Under the pieces are notes generated by a model that had not been told where the DNA came from, did not search any database, and worked only from the letters and a program-made list of their open reading frames with translations. A DNA stretch of 40,643 nucleotides, taken from a virus. Within the stretch, counting starts at the first letter, position 1. Each line of letters opens with the position of its first letter. Of this stretch, positions 13,485 to 16,527 are shown piece by piece. Position numbers and translations under genes: made by a program. Location of the stretch: positions 1 to 40,643 of the IMG/VR virus record IMGVR_UViG_3300012964_000021, one strand, 5' to 3'.

Positions 13485-14561
13485 ATGGATTTTGGTCATT
13501 GGATATATCCCGGAGAGTTTGTAGTCGATGATTGGTTTGGATTTATATACCGAATAATAGAAAAAGATACCGGTAAGCATTACATAGGTAAAAAACAGTT
13601 TCATTCGTATACTAGAAAATCAATAAAAGGTAAGAAAAATAAAAAACTTATCATAAAAGAAAACGATTGGAAAACATATACAAGTTCATCAACACATGTA
13701 AATTCTCAAATAGAGTTAAAGGGTAAAGATAATTTCATTTTTCTTATAGAATCATTGCATAAAACAAAAGGATCTCTATTTTATGCAGAAATAGAATTAC
13801 AGGTATCAGAAAATGTTTTAAGAGAAAAATTTGAAGACGGTGCTAGAAAATATTATAACGGACAAATAGCCGGTGTAAAATTCTTGCCACCCGACGAAGT
13901 ATCGGACGAAACAAGAATGAAAATTTCTAGTACCTTAAAAACCAAATATCTCAATAAAGATAATCATTGGTTTCATAAGATGTCCGAACAAGAACAATTA
14001 GAGTGGAAAGATGCTTACCTAACAGGTAAAAATATCCCAAAATATAGAAATAAAACCGATGAAGAAATTGCCGAATTTATACAAACTAATTGTGTAGGCG
14101 AAAATAACCCAATGTTTGGGAAATTTAAAGAGCAGCATCCAAAATATGGATTACCTATGTCTGCAGAAACAAAAGAAAAAATTTCTAAAAAATTATCAGG
14201 TAGAACCTTATCAGAAGATCATAAGAAAAATATTCGGGACGGGTTAGAAGAATGGATATCTAGTAGCGATTTTGATAACTTTAGACAACGATTGTCTGAT
14301 CGTATGACAGGCGAAAATAACCCAATGTTTGGGAAACCGTGTTATGTAAACATGACAGAAGATCAGAAACTAAAATGGAAAGAAAATATAAGCAATAGTA
14401 CACGCGGGAAGCCAAAGTCTGTAGAAACTAAAGCACGAATGTCCGAGGCAAGAAAAGGTAAAAAGAAACCAACAGTTATTTGTCCGCATTGCAATAAAGA
14501 AGGGGCTAGCGGCAATATGACACGGTATCACTTTAATAACTGCAAAAATAAAACAAAATAA
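13485..14561 (+). CDS. GIY-YIG homing endonuclease with NUMOD3 repeats and zinc finger
   Basis: 358 aa. Residues about 18-40, GFIYRIIEKDTGKHYIGKKQ, are a GIY-YIG-type catalytic start with the G-x-Y and Y-I-G elements. The centre and C-terminus carry NUMOD3-type repeats: GENNPMFGK occurs twice (about 206 and 277), with flanking SAETKEKISKKLSGRTLS and SVETKARMSEARKGKKKP. The C-terminus is a Cys/His finger (CPHC then H-x5-C, about 335-355), common in phage endonucleases of this type. The NUMOD3 repeats share an identical stretch of about 27 nt. It sits between a late promoter and the endolysin, with good ribosome binding sites for itself (AGGAG) and for the next gene. It is a free-standing mobile gene; its target site is not known. 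Confidence 0.88.
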   Translation: MDFGHWIYPGEFVVDDWFGFIYRIIEKDTGKHYIGKKQFHSYTRKSIKGKKNKKLIIKENDWKTYTSSSTHVNSQIELKGKDNFIFLIESLHKTKGSLFYAEIELQVSENVLREKFEDGARKYYNGQIAGVKFLPPDEVSDETRMKISSTLKTKYLNKDNHWFHKMSEQEQLEWKDAYLTGKNIPKYRNKTDEEIAEFIQTNCVGENNPMFGKFKEQHPKYGLPMSAETKEKISKKLSGRTLSEDHKKNIRDGLEEWISSSDFDNFRQRLSDRMTGENNPMFGKPCYVNMTEDQKLKWKENISNSTRGKPKSVETKARMSEARKGKKKPTVICPHCNKEGASGNMTRYHFNNCKNKTK

Positions 14562-14572
14562 TAGGAGATATT

Positions 14573-15160
14573 ATGGCATACGAATTATCATTTGAAAAGG
14601 CAGTCGATCACGAGATGCTTTATGAGGTTGGCAGCTGGTGGAAATTAACACCGGACGTTGAGGCTGGTCTTATTAATACAGAAGAACAACGCACAGCATG
14701 TGGATATTCTAACGACCCAGCCGATCATGGTGGCGAAACAAAATTTGGTGTATCTAAGGCTGCTAATCCTGATCTTAATATTACCTCACTAGATTGGGAG
14801 GCTGCAAAACGTGTTTATTATAAAAGATATTGGTTGCAGGGGGATTGTCAACAAATGCCGCCTAGGTTAGCGGTCTTACATTTCGATGGTTGCGTAAATC
14901 ATGGCATCGGGCGCGCCGCCAAATTCTTGCAGAAATCAATCGGGACTATAGCTGATGGCGATATTGGGCCGGCCACATTAGCACTTATATCGAAATTTAA
15001 TGAAATCGACATATGTAATAAGATCTGCGATCAACGTGCAAATTTTTATCGCAGCATAGTCTATACTATACCCACCCAAGGAAAATATCTAGGCGGATGG
15101 TTAAGACGTGTACAAGAAATGAGGGAATTTACCACAAATCCAGCAAATATATTTCAATAA
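14573..15160 (+). CDS. Endolysin, GH108-type N-acetylmuramidase
   Basis: 195 aa. It resembles the glycosyl hydrolase 108 family with a C-terminal peptidoglycan-binding part. Seen: FEKAVDHE (residues 7-14; E14 is the probable catalytic Glu), then SNDPADHGGETKFGVS (about 46-61), then VYYKRYWLQGDCQQMPPRLA (about 83-102), then FDGCVNHGIGRAAKFLQ and DGDIGPATL, which mark the binding region. Normally the Glu is followed at once by GGY-x-NDP; here about 30 residues intervene. There is no signal peptide, so it would need a holin or other release route, which I do not see nearby. AGGAG lies 8 nt upstream. A terminator follows directly. Confidence 0.86.
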   Translation: MAYELSFEKAVDHEMLYEVGSWWKLTPDVEAGLINTEEQRTACGYSNDPADHGGETKFGVSKAANPDLNITSLDWEAAKRVYYKRYWLQGDCQQMPPRLAVLHFDGCVNHGIGRAAKFLQKSIGTIADGDIGPATLALISKFNEIDICNKICDQRANFYRSIVYTIPTQGKYLGGWLRRVQEMREFTTNPANIFQ

Positions 15161-15174
15161 TTAAATTTTCAATT

Positions 15175-15206
15175 ATAATAAAAGGCCTGTACAGGCCTTT
15201 TATTAT
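15175..15206 (+). terminator. Intrinsic terminator after endolysin
   Basis: A 32-bp perfect palindrome (15175-15206) centred on GGCCTGTACAGGCC with flanking A and T runs (AATAAAA/TTTTATT), followed by ATTTTATG. It starts 14 nt after the endolysin stop. It can act on both strands. Confidence 0.85.
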
Positions 15207-15480
15207 TTTATGTTCAAGATTATTTGTGAAATCCTTACATCTCAGCTAAAATAGTGTAACAGCAAAAGTTGTTCAAGCAAAAATTAAATCATATCATAGG
15301 TAACAGGGTTGACGCGCCATGTATTCCTTATAAATCAATTGCGTATAGGTAATAACCCAAATCGATAAAGCTTACACAAAAACACATAAAAACTTCATTA
15401 TCTGCTTAAAAATAATTACTAAGACATAAAAACGCTTACAAAACAATAGATTTTCATAAAATTAATTATCGTGCTATGTT
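15207..15480 (+). other. AT-rich leader without a gene, upstream of candidate RNA
   Basis: There is no open frame of note. Very AT-rich, with short imperfect direct repeats (ACATAAAAAC at about 15384 and 15424; GCTTACA at about 15370 and 15434). An inverted pair, GGGTT (15306-15310) with AACCC (15356-15360), and ACGC/GCGT inside it could form a long stem. GAAATCCTT at 15228-15236 also occurs at the gp55 promoter (8430-8438). The distal end has TTCATA (15453-15458) and, 16 nt on, TGC-TATGTT (15472-15480), an extended -10-like promoter for the RNA that follows. Confidence 0.55.
15453..15480 (+). promoter_or_regulatory. Possible extended -10 promoter for the structured RNA
   Basis: TTCATA (4 of 6 to the -35 consensus), 16-nt spacer, TATGTT at 15475-15480 preceded by TGC (extended -10). 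The predicted start, near 15487, would fall in the first hairpin, so the true start may be different or further upstream. Confidence 0.4.
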
Positions 15481-15940
15481 GAAGAGGTTTGCTCTTCTCC
15501 CTTGAGGCTGTACAGATTGTGCTGTGCCGTTAGAATCTGGGATGCACCCTGGTACACTAAATGGAGTGTATTTATGTAGGAAGATTTTTAGTCCATAATA
15601 GGAAGGATCTTGCGCTGGTAGAAAAAGAGTTTAACAAACACCAACAAGGATACAAGCCTGCTGTTTTATCAACGAGGGTACCGTAAAAGGTTTAGAATTG
15701 TATTGCGACAGTCCCGCAAGGGGAGAGATACGATGTAGCTGGGAAAATGCTGTCCGCCCACTGTATTACCACTTCCGGGTAATACCGATCGAAAAATGAT
15801 ACCCAGGATGCTTACGGGGTAAGAGCACCAGGCAAAGTTTTCATTATCTTGCTGGCAACAGCGAGATTATGACTTCAATATCAGGCAAAGTATTCAAATA
15901 TACACTATGTCTTTATAGAACAAACCACTGTATGAAATGA
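15481..15940 (+). ncRNA. Candidate large structured non-coding RNA
   Basis: About 460 nt with no open frame and many stable helices. GAAGAG/CTCTTC (15481-15497). A long-range helix AGGCTGTA (15505-15512) with TACA-A-GCCT (15651-15659) encloses hairpins CAGATT/AATCTG (15513-15539), TACACT/AGTGTA (15553-15570) and AAGAT/ATCTT (15581-15611). GCGACAG (15705-15711) pairs with CTGTCCGC (15750-15757) and encloses CCC-GCAA-GGG. GTATTACC/GGTAATAC (15763-15785) is 8 bp with a 7-nt loop. CTTAC/GTAAG lies at 15811-15823. ATCTTGCTG-GCAA-CAGCGAGAT (15846-15867) is 9 bp. Two GNRA tetraloops and a U-G pair read correctly only on the plus strand. It is flanked by a terminator and the convergent end of the gene at 15955. 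Size and complexity recall phage-borne ornate RNAs (GOLLD, ROOL), but I cannot assign a class. Ends are approximate. Confidence 0.65.
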
Positions 15941-15954
15941 ATGCGAAGCTGAGT

Positions 15955-16527
15955 TTACGAAGCGAGTGATTCATGAAATACATGGTCCGTAGGACCGATT
16001 ATATGTACTGAATCGTTTTTCTTATAAATCCGCTTTATAAGCCTTGCGGCTTCTGCATTAGGGGCTAAGGATAGTCTTGGGCGTAGTTTTATCGATACTA
16101 TGTCGTTTCCGATAGTCTCGGTTGTAATTACCCCTATGAATTTCTGAAAGTACATGGTCACAAATGCACTGATACGTAATTCGACATTACCTACTGACTC
16201 TGTTATCTCTACCAGGGTCATTGGATTGAAATGCCTTATTAATTTAATTTCCCCTTTTGTGATATACACTTCTGACAATATTGAATTCCCGATTGGGCGA
16301 TTAATATAAATGTGAGACGTTTTGTAAGGAACTGATTTAACTGATTCAAGATTTAGGTTTGTCTCTAAATCTTGAAGATTCTTAGTTTCAAATGGACTCC
16401 ATTTAATATTTTGAGCATCTAATAATCTCGATAAATCATATATCCACCGATGTTTTGGGTACCTCTCCCAACATTCGATATCATCCTTTGGGATATCTAA
16501 ATCTTGAATATCTATCTTTTTGTGCAT
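15955..16527 (-). CDS. Orphan protein of unknown function, 190 aa
   Basis: I do not recognise this protein. It begins MHKKIDIQDLDIPKDDIECW after an AAGGA ribosome binding site, 11 nt beyond the stop of the gp51-like gene. The sequence is mixed alpha/beta with no signal peptide or membrane segment: a helical N-terminus, then beta-rich HIYINRPIGNSILSEVYI and VELRISAFVTMYFQKFIGV, and a basic region AARLIKRIYKKND near the end. It is the third gene of the leftward gp26-gp51 unit and is probably transcribed late with it, so a virion or assembly role is possible but unproven. Its 3' end faces the 3' end of the candidate RNA. Confidence 0.8.
   Translation of the reverse strand: MHKKIDIQDLDIPKDDIECWERYPKHRWIYDLSRLLDAQNIKWSPFETKNLQDLETNLNLESVKSVPYKTSHIYINRPIGNSILSEVYITKGEIKLIRHFNPMTLVEITESVGNVELRISAFVTMYFQKFIGVITTETIGNDIVSIKLRPRLSLAPNAEAARLIKRIYKKNDSVHIIGPTDHVFHESLAS

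Follow-up and report, generated by a model that had tools for sequence, protein, structure and literature searches.

The window analysed here (the whole stretch of 40,643 nucleotides of the IMG/VR record IMGVR_UViG_3300012964_000021) comes from a T4-like phage, as its portal protein (PF07230) and its baseplate hub (PF12322) indicate. Between the end of a GH108 endolysin gene (15160) and a convergent hypothetical ORF (15955-16527, minus strand) there is a gap of 794 nt (15161-15954), and these two genes flank the locus throughout the clade of the window phage. The initial annotation, made from the sequence alone, had described a gene-free gap of 795 nt, and we found indeed no ORF of at least 50 aa on either strand in 15250-15954. 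The gap is AT-rich at first (28% GC), and the stretch 15461-15910 has 42% GC, matching the level of the endolysin gene. The same annotation placed a large structured RNA at 15481-15940, between a terminator and the convergent gene; both boundaries are where it put them, and the coordinates are accurate within about 30 nt, the structured part being about 15471-15910. A GIY-YIG (SegE-like) homing endonuclease gene with NUMOD3 is found at 13485-14561, just upstream of the endolysin. The main features of the gap are as follows.

15175-15206, plus strand: intrinsic terminator of the endolysin transcript (14-bp stem with T-tail), the upstream boundary
15224-15254, plus strand: putative promoter TTGTGA-17-TAAAAT (inferred), its TAAAATAG part conserved in the clade
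15258-15273, plus strand: leader hairpin AACAG/TTGTT (alignment A8)
15303-15344, plus strand: leader H-type pseudoknot supported by covariation, with stem 2 formed by ACGC (15312-15315) and GCGT (15341-15344)
15471-15910, plus strand: core of the structured RNA (ends inferred), supported by covariation and by 79-80% identity to L021 and L130

About 100 loci were gathered with the flanking proteins as queries. Most close relatives of the window phage have in the same gap an RNA of about 390 nt that we have called class A. The RNA of the window (class B) is shared with three loci, L021 (79% identity over 471 nt), L130 (80% identity over 435 nt, located via a motif search) and L065, which has a partial copy. 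A motif from the 5' part, CTGTACAGNNNGTGCTGTGCCGTNAGA, and then a looser form of it matched 29 of the 2.9 million viral contigs searched, and overall homologues were found in about 30 IMG/VR phage contigs, i.e., uncultivated fragments. The looser motif had no match in 257 Gb of bacterial and archaeal genomes, and BLAST of isolated-phage records gave no DNA similarity; the matches found in plasmids were 26-44 nt long, AT-rich and judged to be due to chance. Class B RNA is known so far only from uncultivated T4-like phages, with one copy per record among the records checked. A coding gene was rejected as an explanation, as the frame is not conserved and most indels relative to the homologues are not multiples of three.

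Single-sequence folding was uninformative (plus strand z = -1.26, with 11 of 100 shuffles equally good; other strand -0.90), so that helices seen by eye alone are no better than chance, and it is the comparison of homologues, not single-sequence energy, that settles the reality of the structure. In a plain MAFFT alignment of the 5' domain (15481-15543; A2, 19 sequences) covariation was 0.481 vs. 0.171 ± 0.021 after shuffling, and 0.06-0.15 with slid partners. The model-fitted alignment (A3) gave 0.604 vs. 0.162, with pairing in 99% of cells. We also applied an R-scape-style phylogenetic test that reassigns substitutions across the tree; since this is our own implementation its E-values are approximate. 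On A2 it found five of 16 helix pairs significant and none of 1814 other pairs. The window's own subfamily B1 (A4) consists of just four sequences, those of the window, L021, L130 and (partial) L065. Its 16 helices comprise 83 pairs, with pairing kept in 98% of cells and compensatory change in 21 pairs, and covariation was 0.325 vs. 0.179 ± 0.021 shuffled and 0.05-0.12 with slid partners. For subfamily B2 (A5, nine sequences) compensatory changes were found in 32 of 78 pairs (0.377 vs. 0.164 ± 0.013 shuffled), and the tree test retained 11 of the 78 helix pairs and none of 96,063 non-helix pairs; the corresponding figure for the compensatory pairs of subfamilies B3 and B4 (six sequences) was 25/84. 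Taken as full-length subfamily alignments, these support 11-16 helices in a region of roughly 440 nt, where at least nine over about 460 nt had been claimed. We regard it as practically certain that 15471-15910 is a conserved structured RNA, and it fulfils what is expected of a large structured phage ncRNA, namely covarying structure over several hundred nt without an ORF. The parts recognized (all in the plus strand) are listed below.

15471-15547, plus strand: P0, GUGC/GCAC (15471-15474 with 15544-15547), closing the 5' domain (subfamily alignments)
15481-15497, plus strand: P1 hairpin, with compensatory change in each of its 6 pairs in the model-fitted alignment and 4 pairs significant in A2
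15498-15542, plus strand: P2 (UCCC/GGGA) around the P3 hairpin, 4/4 pairs compensatory
15510-15527, plus strand: P3 hairpin GUACAG-AUUGUG-CUGUGC, near-invariant, its 6 pairs invariant in 19 distinct sequences
15551-15572, plus strand: P4 hairpin, 4/7 pairs compensatory
15609-15648, plus strand: P7 (CUUG/CAAG and UGGU/ACCA) with a conserved GAAAAAG loop inside, 2/8 pairs compensatory
15649-15703, plus strand: P8, long-range helix AUACAA/UUGUAU with inner hairpins (B1 alignment), CACAC/GUGUG in L065
15704-15758, plus strand: P9, GCGACAGU with the CUGUCCGC region, enclosing the first GNRA hairpin (B1 alignment)
15713-15722, plus strand: first GNRA hairpin, CCC-GCAA-GGG, GNRA in all variants
15763-15785, plus strand: P10, 8-bp hairpin with a 7-nt loop, 4/8 pairs compensatory
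15829-15891, plus strand: 3' domain, with direct repeats CAGGCAAAGT (at 15829 and 15882) flanking a GCAA hairpin (15846-15867)

In the 5' domain, P1 and P2 vary freely in sequence with the pairing kept, and P3 is near-invariant; P0 is GCAAC/GUUGC or UACAC/GUGUA in other subfamilies. The P1-P2-P3 domain with the near-invariant UUGAG-RCUGUACAG-N3-GUGCUGUGCCG is the signature of class B and is met by the window, for which 15481-15543 scored 80.7 bits (E 5e-18) against the class B model, the window itself being among the model-building sequences. P3 contains a U-G pair, invariant in 19 of 19 distinct sequences, that would be C-A on the other strand, and the plus-strand orientation, already deduced from a U-G pair in the initial annotation, is confirmed. 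The individual hairpins that had been pointed out also stood up to comparison, and all of them are present in the B1 consensus: the two hairpins with GCAA loops, the 8-bp hairpin with its 7-nt loop, which shows compensatory changes, and the 9-bp hairpin at 15846-15867, which is conserved. The hairpin at 15713-15722 appears as CCC-GCAA-GGG, CCU-GUAA-AGG, UCC-GCAA-GGA or CCC-GAAA-GGG, that is, with a GNRA loop throughout.

The 10-nt direct repeats around the 3' hairpin (15829-15838 and 15882-15891) remain unexplained. Analogous repeats occur in other subfamilies and in class A, and the spacing in B1, B3, B4 and class A RNAs is 48-57 nt. In several phages both copies have changed alike, from CAGGCAAA to CAGGCAAT in L130 and to CCGTCATG in L002, as if, judging from these sequences, the two recognized one partner. 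No target for pairing in trans was found in the window, TTTGCCTG being absent from its plus strand. Complements of 5 nt of the repeat within the RNA (at 15488 and 15656) were discarded, as by reading they are not kept in the homologues.

Upstream of the RNA, the leader at 15247-15344 (TAAAATAG, short hairpin and H-type pseudoknot) is common to phages of both classes within the clade and had no match in Rfam; L065 (class B) does not have it. TAAA[AG]TA is kept in 21 phages, and the window promoter is weak (9/12 matches), such sites being not above chance in number. In the pseudoknot five of 14 pairs are compensatory (0.205 vs. 0.117 ± 0.012), with changes in both stems, and the tree test found two significant pairs in the leader, one of them in a pseudoknot stem. 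The window leader has one mismatch in stem 1 of the pseudoknot. At L012, L020 and L103 the promoter-like part is kept and the pseudoknot is lost or degenerate, so it cannot be essential. On sequence grounds, TAAAATAG is inferred to be a promoter, and the leader to form the 5' end of the transcript.

Class A RNAs are mostly 70-80% identical among phages, with compensatory changes in 39 of 90 consensus pairs, and in the tree test (A7) ten of the 90 helix pairs were significant and none of 77,725 others. No sequence similarity between the two classes was detected. They are alike in their locus and leader, and both have direct repeats on either side of a 3' hairpin, spaced about 50 nt. Homology between them was not demonstrated, as the class B model (R1) had no significant match in class A and the repeat-hairpin-repeat layout, with weak p values for most sequences, is no more than suggestive. 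Each of the 18 records checked had a single class (8/8 only A, 10/10 only B), although this exclusivity rests on fragmentary records. In a tree of the baseplate hub the window, L021 and L065, all class B, are interspersed with class A phages, and the well-supported branches imply at least two changes between A and B.

To our knowledge, the large structured phage RNAs named so far number no more than a handful, and none has a known function. GOLLD (RF02032), often found near tRNA genes, is like class B RNA large, multi-helix, phage-encoded and of unknown function, and ROOL (RF03087) resembles it in length (574 model positions) and phage location. The initial annotation left open whether the RNA of the window is one of these, a relative that has diverged or a class of its own. 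The Rfam search that it proposed gave no family above the gathering threshold in the window or its homologues, group I/II introns and ribozymes included (weak matches at 15112-15250 are the terminator hairpin). With the GOLLD model neither the window record nor the class B records gave a match. The model does work, however, with 188-212 bits in class A phages G001, G006 and G019, large phages of the window's clade with GOLLD and class A RNA in one genome. Since the two are at separate places, GOLLD is a different RNA in the same genomes. The GOLLD copies are at G001:C1:169065-169531 (L169, G001:C1:167500-171000), L167 (G019) and L168 (G006). The ROOL model matched neither the window nor any of 19 related records, with sensitivity unshown as the control genomes gave no match either. 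A diverged GOLLD or ROOL would agree with the similar size, the elaborate structure and the phage-borne position close to a lysis gene. However, without a match in Rfam, with true GOLLD accompanying the class A RNA of the homologous locus, and with no tRNA nearby (the search found no tRNA or tmRNA in the window, nor any tRNA at class B loci), it is largely refuted and we give it very little credence. A large structured phage RNA it is, then, but not GOLLD or ROOL by any model match, and the tests favour class B being a new class, without a match among the described RNA families.

GOLLD levels go up during lysis, and both GOLLD (as RNA-only particles) and ROOL form RNA nanocages (PMC12286853). 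In ICP1, a noncoding transcript of ~800 nt, which is the most abundant phage transcript, comes from a 1-kb ORF-less gap beside the lysis cluster, without tRNAs (PMC7567579). By its position this is the best functional analogy to class B RNA, but homology was not detected: with filters switched off, model R1 found nothing at the ICP1 gap (best E 0.35), and no DNA similarity to class B RNA turned up in the phage collection.

The neighbours of class B RNA are different in other phages. The RNA is flanked in B2 phages by a RusA-like/PDDEXK nuclease and a convergent baseplate hub protein; L125 has an SbcC-like gene and a hub gene in the vicinity. B3 phages have a PNP-like gene on one side of it and an unknown gene on the other, all in the same strand, and in L131 (B3) a terminator-like hairpin and a perfect sigma-70 promoter (TTGACA-17-TATAAT) directly precede the RNA. 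The RNA accompanies T4-like phages and not one gene, which argues for a stand-alone RNA. Together with the terminator before it and the convergent gene after it, these changing neighbours and the L131 promoter support the earlier claim of a separate unit. Small ORFs with a GIY-YIG-like N-terminus (by eye, weak) are found directly 3' of the RNA in L021 and L130 (6868-7317). The window GIY-YIG gene and the L021 ORF did not prove to be close relatives when compared.

One could also think of a cis-acting element (a long structured 3' UTR, an attenuator or an antisense RNA) controlling the endolysin or the convergent gene, since the position between them is clade-wide and there are no transcript data separating the RNA from its neighbours. 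We find this unlikely, given the strong terminator between endolysin and RNA, the unrelated genes adjoining the same RNA in other phages and the perfect promoter after a terminator in L131; besides, a simple antisense RNA needs no such elaborate structure. Somewhat harder to accept is that the RNA belongs to a mobile element, as a degenerate intron, a ribozyme or the cargo of a homing endonuclease, and persists through movement. The GIY-YIG-like ORFs of L021 and L130, weak as their reading is, the GIY-YIG/NUMOD3 gene near the window RNA and the replacement of the RNAs of the locus at least twice would speak for it, but no intron or ribozyme of Rfam was matched, no gene is interrupted, the window copy has no adjoining nuclease and there is a single copy per record. 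Homing is a more likely explanation for the exchange at the locus than for the function of the RNA, and the ORFs 3' of the RNA are perhaps the agent of that exchange. Finally, an origin, packaging or recombination site, whose inverted repeats would mimic helices, has on its side the intergenic position and the direct repeats, but the G-U pairs are on one strand only (the invariant U-G in P3), and this, the GNRA loops, the nested long-range helices and the three-way junctions are what one expects of RNA, so that such a DNA-level element appears highly improbable.

What we propose instead, and consider probable, is that 15471-15910 is a stand-alone, phage-specific large structured ncRNA, with its own transcription and a role in trans as scaffold or particle, both inferred in the absence of expression data. 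That class B RNA is stand-alone and trans-acting we hold with good confidence. It would have a promoter of its own, active during infection and probably in the late lytic phase, and would form part of a transcript of about 650-690 nt predicted to start at the hairpin-pseudoknot leader. By analogy with GOLLD, ROOL and the ICP1 transcript it might act as a folded scaffold or particle, and an unidentified partner would probably be contacted by P3 (the best candidate) and by the paired 3' repeats. This scaffold or oligomer mechanism is tentative, and no partner, target in trans or oligomer evidence for class B RNA was found.

The alternation of A and B at one locus suggests a slot for a stand-alone, trans-acting structural RNA. 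It is possible, though we would not yet rely on it, that T4-like jumbo phages have a dedicated RNA slot behind a conserved promoter-hairpin-pseudoknot leader, filled by exactly one of at least two non-homologous, functionally equivalent RNAs that are swapped between phages, with a separate role for GOLLD. Two RNA classes with strong covariation are added to the small set of large phage RNAs, the class models allow others to find the RNA in transcriptomes, and the near-invariant 18-nt P3 hairpin can be used as bait. With these, the natural swap experiment of A for B at one locus and the GOLLD control in the same genomes, the role of large phage RNAs becomes directly testable. As for class A, a second partial match (79 nt, 74%) is found in a 369-kb phage, far from the main copy (G002:C1:123551-123630), and at L052 there is extra sequence of about 800 nt between the endolysin and the class A RNA, which by eye looks like a glycine-rich tail-fibre-type protein.
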